A DNA stretch of 50,611 bases from Ignavibacteriota bacterium (GTDB taxonomy: Bacteria; Bacteroidota; Ignavibacteria; UBA10030). Both the position numbers and the translations under genes were made by a program. Below, piece by piece: positions 32,871 through 43,830 of the stretch. The notes beneath the pieces are model-generated. The model saw only the letters and a list, made by a program, of their open reading frames with translations. It had not been told where the DNA came from and did no database searches. The stretch covers positions 1 to 50,611 of the forward strand of contig JAKEEG010000077.1 in the NCBI GenBank assembly GCA_022616555.1, in the 5' to 3' direction. The number at the start of each line of letters is the position of its first letter. Position 1 is the stretch's first letter.

Positions 32871-33995
32871 TTAACCAAGGCGTTTTTGGAAGCGGGCAAT
32901 ACTAAGGGACAATATTGCCATCCCAAAGATGAGAAGTGCAAGTGCCTGCGGCCAGAGAGTTTCTATACCAACTCCCTTTAGAAAAAGACCGCGGACGATT
33001 TCGAGGAAATACCGAAGCGGAATAACATAGGTGAGAGCCTGAATAATCGGTGGCATGTTTTCGATCGGAAATGTAAACCCCGAAAGAAAAAGGAACGGAA
33101 ACATCACAAAAAATTGCATCGTCATCAACGCTTGCTGTTGCGTGTGCGATACTGTCGAGACGAACAACCCAAGCCCGAGGGTCGTCATGAGAAACAACGC
33201 GCACAAGCCGAGCAAGAGCAATATACTGCCATGCAACGGTACTTCAAACCAGGTCGTGCCCACCACCATCACGAGAATTACATCGAGAAAGCCGATAATG
33301 ACGTAGGGCAGTAGTTTACCGATGATGAACTCGTGCCGCTTAATGGGTGTGACGAGGATTTGTTCGAGCGTACCAATCTCACGCTCTTTCACAATTGCCG
33401 CGGAGCTGAACGCCGCCGTAATAATAAAGAGAATGAGAGCGATGACGCCGGGAACCATGTAGTTCGCACTGCGTAAATCAGGATTGAACCATACGCGCAT
33501 TTCTGACTTCACGCGTGGAATGCGCACGCTGCCTGTCCGCAGCAATTCCGCTACGAGAATTTCCTGCGCAAATCCGGAAACGATTTGGGAAGAGTAATTC
33601 AGGCTGATGTTGGCCGTGTTGGCGTCCGCCCCGTCGGCAAGTAATTGTAGTTGAGCTTGCCCGCCGCTCGATAGATTGCGACTGAAATCGACTGGAATCA
33701 CCATAGCGAGCGAGGCTTCACTCCGGTCAAGGTACGCGTCAATATCGTTCGGGTTATCGATATACTCGACGATGGTAAAATACCCCGTGTTCGTAAATCG
33801 CTGCACGAGCTCCCTGCTCATCGAGCTACGGTCGAGATTGCATACCACCATGGGAATATTTTTGACATCAACCGTTGCGGCATAGCCGAGCAAAATTGTT
33901 TGTAGAATTGGAGCGACAAGGATAAGAGGCAACATCCGCCTATCCCGTCGGATTTGCAGAAACTCCTTGATCATCAATTCGCGTATACGTTTCAT
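32871..33995 (-). CDS. ABC-2 type transporter permease 2
   Basis: The 374-residue inner-membrane protein starts at ATG 33995, overlapping the stop of permease 1 (ATGA). It has one N-terminal helix (LMLPLILVAPILQTILLGYA-like), a large periplasmic domain of about 150 residues (VVCNLDRSSMSRELVQRFT, SLAMVIPVDFSRNL), then five helices (IALILFIITAAFSSAAIVKERE, IGTLEQILVTPIKRHE, LLPYVIIGFLDVILVMVVG and others). This is the YbhS/YhhJ/Yad-type exporter permease with the EREIGTLEQ motif. It ends the exporter operon and may pair with permease 1 as a heterodimer. Confidence 0.92.
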   Translation of the reverse strand: MKRIRELMIKEFLQIRRDRRMLPLILVAPILQTILLGYAATVDVKNIPMVVCNLDRSSMSRELVQRFTNTGYFTIVEYIDNPNDIDAYLDRSEASLAMVIPVDFSRNLSSGGQAQLQLLADGADANTANISLNYSSQIVSGFAQEILVAELLRTGSVRIPRVKSEMRVWFNPDLRSANYMVPGVIALILFIITAAFSSAAIVKEREIGTLEQILVTPIKRHEFIIGKLLPYVIIGFLDVILVMVVGTTWFEVPLHGSILLLLGLCALFLMTTLGLGLFVSTVSHTQQQALMTMQFFVMFPFLFLSGFTFPIENMPPIIQALTYVIPLRYFLEIVRGLFLKGVGIETLWPQALALLIFGMAILSLSIARFQKRLG

Positions 33996-35122
33996 CGTGA
34001 AAGCTCCCGCCGCAAGCGCAGGCTGCTGATGCCAAGCACAACCACGGTAAACATGCCCATGTAGAGAAATTGCTGCCACACTGCCTCGAAGCCGACACCC
34101 TTAAGTATGACAGAGCGTAAAATCGAGAGGAAGAACTTTGTCGCCATTGCATTCGATATCACCTGCAAGGCTAGGGGCATGCTGCTGATCGGGAAAATAA
34201 ATCCCGACAACAAAAATGCAGGTAGCAAAGAGGAGAACACCGACATGAGGTAGGCGACCTGTTGAGTCTCGGCTATTGAAGAAATCAGCATGCCCTGTCC
34301 AAGTCCGGCAATGAGAAATAACAGTATTGCCGAGTAGAGCAGGAAGAGATTCCCCCTCACCGACACATCGAACAACTGCCAGCCGAGTATCAGCACAAGT
34401 GTTGATGAGAACAGGGCGATAATCAAGTAGGGAATTGTCTTGCCGATAATAATTTCTTCCGCTCGTAAGGGAGAAGTTTTCAATTGCTCCATTGTGCCCA
34501 TTTCTTTCTCCCGCACAATGGACAGCGAGGTCGAGATGACTGTCGCAATCATTAAGATTAAGCCAAAAAGCCCGGGCACGAGGTACTTCGCCGTTTTAAG
34601 CTCAGGGTTATACCAGAGTTTCGGCCTTAAATCGATTGGAAATGCCAGCGATTTGCCCCGTTGTTCAAGCCATTCCGTTTGGATGCGGGACGAGTATGCT
34701 TGAATCGCTTGCGTCATGTATCCTGCTGCCGCCGTGGCTGAATTGGAGTTTGAGCCGTCGAGAATAACTTGTATAAGCGCCTCGTTGCCAGCGTCAAGTT
34801 CATGCGAAAAATCCGCGGGAATAACAATGACGAGGTGTGCGCTGCCACCTTCTAATACGGCATCGATCTCATCCTTCGAGTTAAGTGTTACGAAATAATC
34901 GAAGTATTCCGACTGCGTCATGCCGGCAATAAGATCTCGGCTGCGCGCGGTGCGGTCCTCGTCGTACACGGCAAGCTTTAAATGTTTCACATCAAAATTG
35001 AGTGCGTATCCGACCAGCAGGAGCATGAATGCCGGGAAGAAAATGAGAATCGCTAACGCCCGTATGTCGCGCGCGATCTGACGAAATTCCTTTTTAACGA
35101 TAGGTAGTATGTTGAGAGTCAT
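33992..35122 (-). CDS. ABC-2 type transporter permease 1
   Basis: The 376-residue inner-membrane protein has the same organisation as the next gene: an N-terminal helix (LAILIFFPAFMLLLVGYALNF), a periplasmic domain (LKLAVYDEDRTARSRDLIAG, VIVIPADFSHELDAG), and a C-terminal membrane bundle with REKEMGTMEQLKTSPLR. It overlaps both neighbours by ATGA (35119-35122 and 33992-33995), so the three last genes are tightly coupled. In homologous systems (YbhFSR, YhiI/YhhJ) two such permeases act with a fused or paired ATPase. Confidence 0.92.
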   Translation of the reverse strand: MTLNILPIVKKEFRQIARDIRALAILIFFPAFMLLLVGYALNFDVKHLKLAVYDEDRTARSRDLIAGMTQSEYFDYFVTLNSKDEIDAVLEGGSAHLVIVIPADFSHELDAGNEALIQVILDGSNSNSATAAAGYMTQAIQAYSSRIQTEWLEQRGKSLAFPIDLRPKLWYNPELKTAKYLVPGLFGLILMIATVISTSLSIVREKEMGTMEQLKTSPLRAEEIIIGKTIPYLIIALFSSTLVLILGWQLFDVSVRGNLFLLYSAILLFLIAGLGQGMLISSIAETQQVAYLMSVFSSLLPAFLLSGFIFPISSMPLALQVISNAMATKFFLSILRSVILKGVGFEAVWQQFLYMGMFTVVVLGISSLRLRRELSR

Positions 35123-41667: not shown

Positions 41668-42789
41668 CTATTTTTTTGTTTTAGTCTGTTGCGTTTGCTG
41701 CAACGCGTCCAACCCGCCGCGAATTTTGTAACCGATCTGCTCGCCGTCGATAAAGATAATAATTGAGTCGGCATTGACTTGCTCGACCATAGCATTCTGT
41801 GTCTTCTGTCTTTGTTGAGACACGTTACGATAGAGCGTGAAATTGAGATAGCCGTCCTGTTGCTCGATCAACGTCTGGACAGTATTCGCATCGAGCCTCT
41901 GCTGTTTCATTTGTTGTGAGCGCGGCAGTTCTTCGACGGGCAACTCGGTTACTGTAACAGCGGTAGTATTGGCTTGTTGCACCCCCTCTGGCCGTATTTG
42001 TGGCGCAGCGAGTACTCGCTTCTCTTTAAGAGCCTCTTGGGCAGCGGCTTGTTGGAGTGCATCAGCCGACTGCTTACTCGTAATGACAATGCCATCCACC
42101 CAAATCTGCGGCCGCGGGATATCACCTTCTAGTGCCGCCATTTCCTGCCGTCCATCTATCAACGCTTCATCCTTCTTCGCCATAGCACCCGCGGCAGGAG
42201 CTGGTGATTCGGCTATATGCAGATCACGTTCTGCTCTCTTTCGTTTCGATTCTTCCTCACGCTGCGCAAAGGACTCGGCTGCCTTCGCGTCGTAACGCGA
42301 ACGGTCTGCTGTTTCTCCCGTCGCCAAGCGCTCAGCTGGTTGCGGTGGTTGGACGTCATCTGCCTGACCGGCCTTATCTATCTTACCAAGGGCGCCCGCC
42401 TCGCCCTGCAACTCCTGCTCCGTAGTGCCCTGCTGAGTATCATCGCCAAGGGGGATCCACTTGTTATAGACTCCCAACCCAAACAACACTACGAGCGTCG
42501 CAGCGATGCTTACAATGCGCACCCAGGGCGTACGCTGCTCAGGCGGGGACTGCCCGGCTTGTACGCGCTCTTTCAAACGGGCTTTCATCTCATCCCGCCC
42601 CACGCGCTTGATACCGAGAACAAGCCGCTGCTCATCGCGCACGGTGCTCTGGCACTCCTCGCACGTCAGCAGATGCGCCTCAAGCTCTTTGCGCCGCGCG
42701 GCATCAAGCCTGTGCAGTACGAACTGCTCGAGCAGCTCTGCGTCTTGTGTCCAATGTATGTTGGGTGAGTTGGTCATTGTTGAACCCAT
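41668..42789 (-). CDS. Zinc-finger anti-sigma factor, membrane-anchored
   Basis: The 373-residue protein has an N-terminal anti-sigma zinc site (HLLTCEECQ, H-x3-C-x2-C, residues about 40-48), a membrane helix at about 90-108 (VSIAATLVVLFGLGVYNK), and a long periplasmic part rich in Gln and Ala (QQGTTEQELQGEAGALGK, QKAAAQEALKE-like) without a recognised domain. It probably controls the adjacent ECF sigma factor. The DUF559 cassette separates the two genes. ATG 42789 lies inside the cassette's terminal repeat and has GGAAGGGG before it; ATG 42777 (MTNSPNIHW) is probably the ancestral start. Confidence 0.85.
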   Translation of the reverse strand: MGSTMTNSPNIHWTQDAELLEQFVLHRLDAARRKELEAHLLTCEECQSTVRDEQRLVLGIKRVGRDEMKARLKERVQAGQSPPEQRTPWVRIVSIAATLVVLFGLGVYNKWIPLGDDTQQGTTEQELQGEAGALGKIDKAGQADDVQPPQPAERLATGETADRSRYDAKAAESFAQREEESKRKRAERDLHIAESPAPAAGAMAKKDEALIDGRQEMAALEGDIPRPQIWVDGIVITSKQSADALQQAAAQEALKEKRVLAAPQIRPEGVQQANTTAVTVTELPVEELPRSQQMKQQRLDANTVQTLIEQQDGYLNFTLYRNVSQQRQKTQNAMVEQVNADSIIIFIDGEQIGYKIRGGLDALQQTQQTKTKK

Positions 42790-42823
42790 CCCCTAACCCC
42801 TTCCCTAATTATTAGGGAAGGGG
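42783..42823 (+). repeat. Left terminal inverted repeat of the DUF559 cassette
   Basis: This 41-bp unit begins AACCCATCCCC, and its inner part forms a hairpin (CCCCTTCCCT, 7-nt loop, AGGGAAGGGG). The reverse complement of 43228-43268 matches it at 35 of 41 positions with no gap; four of the six differences are in the loop. Confidence 0.85.
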
Positions 42824-42835
42824 AATATGGCATTT

Positions 42836-43210
42836 TTATTCCGACAAATATTTTTCTAACTGCTTTAATACATCGGTTAGTCGGCGTTCTACTTCTTCAT
42901 TCTTGAAACGCACTACCCGGATACCTTTATTGTTGATTAAATGAGTTCTCAATTCGTCGTGTTCTTTCTGCCGCTCATGAATTCTTCCGTCTAGCTCAAC
43001 AACTAACTTGCGTTCATAACAATAAAAATCAGCAATGAAAAATGTTGGTCTGCCTTCGTTGAGGCATAATAACGGGTGTTGCCGCAAGAACTTCTTACCC
43101 AACAACTTTCTATCTCGCAACTCTTCCCATAGGATGCGCTCGGCCTCCGTCATATTCTTCCGCAGTTCGCGTGCTATCTGTTTTGCGAACTCTAAAAGTT
43201 TTTTACTCAT
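42836..43210 (-). CDS. DUF559 family endonuclease-like protein
   Basis: The 124-residue product has the Vsr-like restriction-nuclease fold typical of DUF559: MTEAERILWEELRDRKLLGK, KFLRQHPLLCL, FFIADFYCYERKLVVELDG (with the catalytic-type Asp and Glu), RIHERQKEHDELRTHLI and IRVVRFKNEEVERR. All expected residues are present, so the gene appears intact. Proteins of this family are found singly in many genomes with variable neighbours. Here it is flanked by inverted repeats. Start ATG 43210; GGGGAGG of the adjacent repeat lies about 13 nt upstream. Confidence 0.92.
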   Translation of the reverse strand: MSKKLLEFAKQIARELRKNMTEAERILWEELRDRKLLGKKFLRQHPLLCLNEGRPTFFIADFYCYERKLVVELDGRIHERQKEHDELRTHLINNKGIRVVRFKNEEVERRLTDVLKQLEKYLSE

Positions 43211-43227
43211 ACGTACTCATTCGACCT

Positions 43228-43268
43228 CCCCTTCCCTGATTTTCAGGGAAGGGGCTGGGGGATGGGTT
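43228..43268 (-). repeat. Right terminal inverted repeat of the DUF559 cassette
   Basis: This is the inverted copy of 42783-42823, with the same hairpin arms (CCCCTTCCCT and AGGGAAGGGG) and a different loop. The last two bases belong to the sigma factor stop codon. Confidence 0.85.
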
Positions 43269-43830
43269 AAGTCATTTGTAATATCCTCTCCAGCGCCTTC
43301 TTGCATTGATACTTTTTCGCCTTTACCGTATCGGCGTTGGCGAAACCCATCCTCTTCGCGATTAACTCCGTCGAAAGCTCCTCCCAATAGAACAACATCA
43401 GTAACGTTCTGCACGGTTCGCCTAATTTATTGAGCGCGATCCGCACAAGTTGAGCCGCTTCATCATCGATCAATTCATCCAACACTGAGATACCGCCATC
43501 TCCAATCTGGTCGGACTCAAGTTCCGTGGGAATTTCCCTTTTCATTCGCGAGAGCTTTCGGTACCACATATTCCTAACGGTCGCATATAAAAACGTACTC
43601 AATTGCGCGGTCAGCTCAAACTTGCCTGATTGGATCCGCTCCCATAAAATCACCAACGCCTCCTGCAACATATCCTCCGCGTCGTCCGGCGTCCCGCTGT
43701 TGCGCGTAACAAATGCCGTGATAGGCTTCCGGTTCGCCTCATACACCGAGACCAATGCCTCTTCGTCTCCCGCCCGGATGCGTTCAACTATGCGCTGGTC
43801 AGATTGTATCAGGCTCAACGACGGGCTCAT
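43267..43830 (-). CDS. ECF RNA polymerase sigma factor
   Basis: The 187-residue sigma-70 family factor has region 2 (about 20-90: EALVSVYEANRKPITAFVTR, DAEDMLQEALVILWERI, STFLYATVRNMWYRKL) and region 4 (about 125-185: LNKLGEPCRTLLMLFYWEEL, IAKRMGFANADTVKAKKYQC). The text matches ECF factors of Bacteroidota-like organisms, including the KKxxCKKxL helix. The stop TAA is partly formed by the end of the DUF559 cassette's terminal repeat. It is divergent from the VWA gene. Its regulator is presumably the anti-sigma protein on the other side of the cassette. Confidence 0.93.
   Translation of the reverse strand: MSPSLSLIQSDQRIVERIRAGDEEALVSVYEANRKPITAFVTRNSGTPDDAEDMLQEALVILWERIQSGKFELTAQLSTFLYATVRNMWYRKLSRMKREIPTELESDQIGDGGISVLDELIDDEAAQLVRIALNKLGEPCRTLLMLFYWEELSTELIAKRMGFANADTVKAKKYQCKKALERILQMT

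Follow-up and report, generated by a model that had tools for sequence, protein, structure and literature searches.

A DUF559 nuclease gene between BoxC-type inverted repeats in Ignavibacteria: anatomy, relatives and probable mobility

In a 50,611-nucleotide stretch of DNA from an Ignavibacteriota bacterium (the window), a small nuclease gene stands between a sigma factor gene and an anti-sigma gene and is enclosed by two inverted, hairpin-bearing repeats. How did this unit come to be there, and do the nuclease and the repeats belong together? Our best reading is that it is probably a compact mobile element, REPtron-like or homing-like, with BoxC-type ends, moved with the help of its DUF559 nuclease. 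The anatomy of the unit, the association of gene and repeat across phyla, the co-variation of the third strand, the empty and filled sites and the patchy distribution were all computed directly.

A 486-bp unit between sigma and anti-sigma genes

The unit (42783-43268, 486 bp) consists of inverted hairpin-bearing ends enclosing a single DUF559 gene. Its features and neighbors in the window are:

41668..42777, minus strand: zf-HC2 anti-sigma gene (ORF and Pfam; adjoins the sigma gene in relatives; the ORF runs from 42789)
42783..42824, plus strand: cassette end 1, inverted-repeat arm downstream of the DUF559 gene; tail AACCCATCCCC at 42783-42793, linker TAA (TTA on the purine strand, 'type A'), hairpin at 42797-42823; allowed triads 9/9 on the purine strand, GGGGAAGGG/GGGGATGGG
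42836..43210, minus strand: DUF559 (PF04480) nuclease gene, 124 aa (Pfam E 5e-31)
43227..43268, plus strand: cassette end 2, inverted-repeat arm upstream of the DUF559 gene; hairpin at 43228-43254, linker CTG (resembling 'type B' CCG), tail GGGGATGGGTT at 43258-43268; allowed triads 9/9
43267..43830, minus strand: sigma-70-family sigma factor gene (ORF and Pfam; orthologues in relatives)

All three genes lie on the minus strand, with the cassette in the middle. The two ends are 42 nt each, 86% complementary and separated by 402 nt; the equal inverted repeats of the initial annotation (41 bp, 35 matches) were real and one base too short. Each end folds into a hairpin with a 12-bp stem and a 3-nt loop (-13.1 kcal/mol for end 1 and -14.0 kcal/mol for end 2), so that the hairpins reported earlier were present, with arms slightly longer than the 10 bp given. 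Both hairpins had z = -4.6, and 0 of 200 shuffles was equally stable. As had been claimed, DUF559 was the only gene bounded by the repeats.

The sigma stop codon (TAA, 43267-43269) takes its final two bases from one cassette end, which agrees with the initial annotation. Its further proposal, that the other end supplies a new start for the anti-sigma gene, stood only in part: an in-frame ATG at 42789 does lie within the cassette end, upstream of the anti-sigma start, but the start matching relatives is the ATG at 42777 ('MTNSPNIHW'), just outside the cassette. It is thus possible that the cassette gives the anti-sigma gene a new start.

Orthologous sigma genes were taken from order-level relatives, of which 26 were informative. 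In 25 of these the anti-sigma gene was directly next to the sigma gene without DUF559, often overlapping it or a few bases away and at most about 110 bp apart, and hairpins of this kind were found beside 0 of the 26 sigma genes. The view that the two genes usually adjoin was thereby borne out, and the comparison of empty sites gave sites without the cassette in the same 25 relatives. Since the genes of the relatives adjoin with neither DUF559 nor hairpin between them, the unit is best read as an insertion in the lineage of the window. The sigma proteins of the relatives are 43-62% identical, so the insertion junction cannot be fixed to the base, and no exact junction rule for insertions was found. 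No target-site duplication was seen by inspection at the window unit or at dispersed copies, and no transposase was detected inside the window unit, where DUF559 was the sole gene by Pfam; on these grounds a classical MITE or IS was rejected.

BoxC-type repeats and their third strand

A search of the genome for the repeat and for DUF559 genes flanked by it, proposed with the initial annotation, gave about ten close copies of the repeat, some of which were a single palindrome with two tails, and a covariance model revealed dozens of related forms. Among these were at least 12 REPIN-like inverted pairs, 74-100 bp long, whose ends GACCCCATCC...GGTGAGGTC are conserved. All four DUF559 genes of the genome (4/4) had such hairpins on their flanks, with four repeat types represented; those at the other three genes were alike in make-up and differed in sequence type from those of the window. 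The initial annotation had named a DUF559 gene fixed at this site, with repeats nowhere else, as evidence against its proposal; what was found were 25 empty sites among 26 and repeats dispersed in the genome. Its description of a REP/TIR-like unit in which a Vsr-like nuclease stands in for the transposase was supported, as were the empty site and the repeats elsewhere. The tails point outward in the window and inward at many other loci, so the element boundaries vary.

Several other repeat arrangements were observed. On one contig (G000:C31), repeat matches with equal scores lay at mirrored positions, about 33078-35016 and 90311-92249, which suggests a large inverted duplication or an assembly artefact. 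At another locus (L044, 1300-2600), at least six tail-hairpin units, which belong to two types, were clustered around one DUF559 gene. A DUF559 subgroup (L048, L054, L055, L058 and L060) had CACACACCCCT...AGGGGTGTGTG-like repeats on its flanks, whose hairpins have long loops and escape the strict hairpin test.

BoxC/PIT/TM_ECO triplex repeats, which Hoyne is said to have treated in 2000, share with the window repeats a pyrimidine arm, a purine arm, a TTA- or CCG-like linker and a purine third strand, and they too form inverted A+B pairs and are dispersed and widespread. In the window this make-up was found with a Y-arm, an R-arm, the short linkers TTA and CTG and a purine third strand. Their sequence identifies the repeats as BoxC/PIT/TM, a known intrastrand-triplex motif. 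The motif occurs in more than 260 genomes, with 23 copies in E. coli MG1655; its close inverted pairs always combine type A (TTA) with type B (CCG); and only the E. coli motif has been demonstrated to form the triplex in vitro (PMC4666352). In Enterobacter 638, the palindrome is present in 100 copies (PMC2869309).

To date, BoxC/PIT/TM_ECO has been known as (intergenic) repeats without a mover gene, and no mobility genes were found near repeats of this type (Holder 2015, PMC4666352). In contrast to known BoxC, the repeats studied here flank DUF559 in many phyla and also lie in frame in genes. No description pairing BoxC-type repeats with DUF559 was found in the open-access literature, and one may exist elsewhere. 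What is new is the pairing, the repeats and the nuclease family each being known already. The earlier suggestion of an undescribed self-mobilising element therefore holds for the pairing within that literature; the repeats themselves were known (PMC4666352), and mobilisation is deduced from comparison.

In 190 hairpins flanking DUF559 genes, the outer tail behaved as a third strand, co-varying with the arm of the hairpin. A score of at least 7 was reached by 59% of them, compared to 10.5% with swapped tails and 0.9% with shuffled ones. In families with asymmetric arms (e.g. GGGGGAAGG with the tail GGATGGGGG), the tail was a mirror copy of the arm and not a direct copy. An origin of the tail by direct duplication was rejected on account of these mirror copies and of the lower parallel-sense score. 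At the sequence level this is evidence that the relation of the three strands is maintained, which falls short of proof that a triplex forms in cells.

DUF559 and the repeats across genomes

The feature scored was a hairpin with one pyrimidine-rich and one purine-rich arm. In the window's own genome and its order, it lay within 170 bp of 24 of 33 DUF559 genes versus 0 of 26 orthologous sigma genes. A wider sample of 70 DUF559 loci from GTDB, drawn with one peptide pattern, covered Proteobacteria, Nitrospirae, Chloroflexota, Planctomycetes, WOR-3, other phyla and one MAG labelled Euryarchaeota. Here a hairpin within 200 bp was present at 66 of 70 loci and on both sides at 51, whereas control ORFs from the same contigs had one on any side in 13 of 98 cases and on both sides in 0 of 98 (p ~1e-27). 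With orthologous loci collapsed to 45, the weighted counts were 41.5 (any side) and 29.4 (both sides). These controls (0/26 sigma genes; 0/98 on both sides) ruled out that the hairpins are ordinary terminators or palindromes that arose by chance beside a small gene. Although the hairpins do adjoin genes, their third strand co-varies with the arm and the repeats also lie in frame inside ORFs, and we give this explanation almost no credence.

The number of repeats per genome was correlated with the number of DUF559 genes (rho 0.64, kinship of genomes ignored). Another transposase, of the RAYT/TIRYT or IS200-like HUH kind, could move the repeats and leave DUF559 as a passenger between two of them. 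Y1 genes are common in these genomes, and the TIRs of TIRYTs have a common GGGGWSAS motif (PMC3733652) that some of the tails here would fit. However, the palindromes flanking 30 Y1/HUH (RAYT-type) loci of the same genomes differed from the DUF559 repeats, and repeat number was independent of Y1 number once DUF559 was accounted for: the partial correlation, again ignoring kinship, was 0.54 for DUF559 given Y1 (p 6e-6) and 0.08 for Y1 given DUF559. The position of DUF559 between repeats also recurs in many phyla. We consider a HUH mover quite unlikely, and ownership of the repeats by Y1/RAYT genes was rejected, the Y1 loci carrying other palindromes and the repeat number tracking DUF559. Seven loci (L102, L105, L109, L112, L117, L120 and L127) showed Y1/HUH (RAYT-like) genes with inverted palindromes of their own, e.g. 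ACCCCGAAGGGGT, and are apparently ordinary REPtrons/TIRtrons.

Across the phylum (395 genomes), repeats and DUF559 were associated with an odds ratio of 9, kinship ignored; at most 17 candidates were scored per genome, so counts saturate and presence or low thresholds were used. The similarity of elements tracked that of the DUF559 proteins (Mantel rho 0.45, p 0.001). This tracking, together with the absence of hairpins on both sides of any of the 98 control genes, speaks against recombination between pre-existing dispersed repeats as a process that shuffles DUF559 with no functional link. Such repeats are numerous, and repeat loci are rearranged more often than controls (PMC4666352), but we regard this explanation as very improbable. 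Genomes with repeats and without DUF559 exist (5 of 61 with five or more), and in some genomes DUF559 was present and repeats were not detected.

In Comamonadaceae, the DUF559 gene occurs at one orthologous locus, from which vertical inheritance follows. In some clades such as this one the gene is thus fixed, and the initial proposal of a self-mobilising element needs amending on this point. In E. coli, the DUF559 gene ycjD (sapF-fabI) resembles the window unit in having a BoxC copy just downstream, with no BoxC on its other side; across lineages of E. coli, its locus and the eef operon alternate (PMC12817139). In the K-12 locus that was examined (L097, 3706-3744 and 3893-3926), one BoxC copy follows ycjD closely and another, partial one overlaps the 3' end of the gene.

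In the phylum of the window, DUF559 with its hairpins was further found within long frames of MetH, leucyl-tRNA synthetase, HsdR, type ISP and a GATase_5 protein, and the domains were confirmed. A strict hairpin was present on at least one side in 11 of 16 long-frame loci and on both sides in 6. In-frame DUF559 was seen in MetH (L249, L251, L257, L259 and L266), LeuRS (L243, L246 and L265) and HsdR (L248, L250 and L255). Many in-frame DUF559 domains were surrounded by repeat-encoded peptides such as PSGAGGAGK or PLPLGEGLGV.

MetH was compared in 61 genomes of one genus, from which 30 loci were fetched and a tree of the MetH flanks was built with 28 rows. In 8 of the 30 loci about 400 bp of extra sequence was found in the MetH linker before 'GKILMATVKGD', while the rest read straight through. 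The inserts had a C-rich/G-rich hairpin with a tail at both ends, in the same outward layout as in the window. Within this genus, 8 species carried the insertion and at least 20 lacked it; the tree contains 8 filled and 20 empty sites. On it the trait requires about 7 changes, with at least 4 of them forced by well-supported branches, which was no fewer than with shuffled labels. Insert and host similarity were unrelated (rho -0.03, 28 non-independent pairs). This pattern is consistent with homing-like gains and losses that recur at a single site, and may also reflect deep ancestry with many losses. An intein was rejected by inspection, the MetH inserts having no intein-like ends and being read through in frame. 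Inspection also revealed no splicing element around the nuclease, and the window unit is a plain intergenic gene.

The enzyme and a possible mode of spread

The window protein matched PF04480 with 107 bits (cut-off 20.6), and its AF2 model had a pLDDT of 95.3. The best PDB matches by Foldseek were the DUF559 protein NGO0050 (3hrl) and I-Bth0305I (3r3p), reportedly an EDxHD homing endonuclease according to Taylor in 2011; the profile match to 3r3p had an E of 9e-7. The label of a Vsr-like nuclease was right in that relatives with a Vsr-like fold exist, but the closest ones are EDxHD homing endonucleases. Columns E24, D61, H78 and D85 were conserved in DUF559, as were E72 and D74; the first four could be the EDxHD set, with E72/D74 in addition. 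One DUF559 gene has already been termed an EDxHD member (PMC9403480), and in 2005 YcjD was placed close to Vsr within the PD-(D/E)XK superfamily (PMC1189080). Membership in a defence system was rejected, as PADLOC gave just a weak match to a methyl-directed REase.

The Caulobacter DUF559 protein VsrA triggers SOS if a cytosine methyltransferase is lacking (PMC12907096), which indicates that DUF559 members can damage chromosomal DNA and, as some act in an SOS/methylation setting, that not all need be movers. DUF559 could on this basis be a Vsr-like repair or restriction-like nuclease that processes repeat structures, the repeats lying nearby for regulation or by accident. The relatives with a Vsr-like fold, the weak PADLOC match, the fixed locus in Comamonadaceae and the instability of BoxC loci in E. 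coli (PMC4666352) would agree with such a role. It leaves unaccounted for, however, the whole cassette with its repeats in frame in several unrelated genes, for MetH with empty orthologous sites as well, the differing insertion sites in Ignavibacteria and the patchy MetH insertion, and we think it unlikely.

The preferred reading remains a mobile element moved with the help of DUF559. As gene and repeats co-occur in many bacteria, even in frame in housekeeping genes, DUF559 probably spreads these repeats. From the comparative evidence we infer the nuclease as mover, the DNA form recognised and the repair route. The element would be laid out as tail-hairpin, DUF559 nuclease gene and hairpin-tail, and the purine strand of its ends may fold into a hairpin with a reverse-Hoogsteen third strand (an intrastrand triplex). 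The EDxHD/Vsr-like DUF559 would recognise these ends, probably single-stranded during replication or repair, and nick or cut there or at the target site. Host repair could then copy or move the unit, or gene-less tail-hairpin-(spacer)-hairpin-tail derivatives, and preferred sites would be re-invaded in a homing-like manner. Where the gene is fixed, as in Comamonadaceae, DUF559 may act mainly in trans on dispersed repeats. RAYT genes, too, are often fixed at one locus in a clade.

Like a REPtron (RAYT/REP/REPIN; PMC3733652, PMC8266576), the DUF559 unit has one gene, inverted palindromes and an unpaired tail, along with dispersed gene-less inverted pairs and vertical inheritance of the gene in some clades; its gene is flanked by inverted hairpin repeats that are also found dispersed, by which REPtrons are recognised. 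It differs in that its enzyme is an EDxHD/Vsr-like nuclease and not a HUH Y1 transposase, and in that the window tails AACCCATCCCC/GGGGATGGGTT are a mirror third strand without a GTAG or CGTC tag. With I-Bth0305I, DUF559 shares by its model the fold of the catalytic domain and the likely active site, and, as with homing endonucleases, a single site in the conserved gene MetH is occupied repeatedly. Unlike I-Bth0305I, the DUF559 unit has by inspection no intron or intein around it and has hairpin/triplex ends and gene-less derivatives, and the window protein, at 124 aa, has no obvious extra DNA-binding domain. Rickettsia palindromic elements are likewise palindromic units in frame in housekeeping genes, with sequences that differ from the repeats here; to our knowledge they carry no nuclease gene.

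A bolder reading is that the unit represents a new class of mobile element in prokaryotes, whose EDxHD/Vsr-like nuclease specifically recognises triplex ends while host repair spreads the gene together with gene-less BoxC repeats, including by in-frame invasion of housekeeping genes; we hold this tentatively, its chances falling somewhat short of even. BoxC/PIT/TM, known from E. coli since the 1990s and by now from hundreds of genomes, still lacks an explanation of its spread and of the role of the triplex. A nuclease family that accompanies the repeats across phyla makes the question of their spread directly testable, and DUF559, a domain of unknown function, gains a likely substrate. The co-variation argues, from sequence, that the third strand is of importance in cells, and natural in-frame nuclease insertions exist in enzymes such as methionine synthase.
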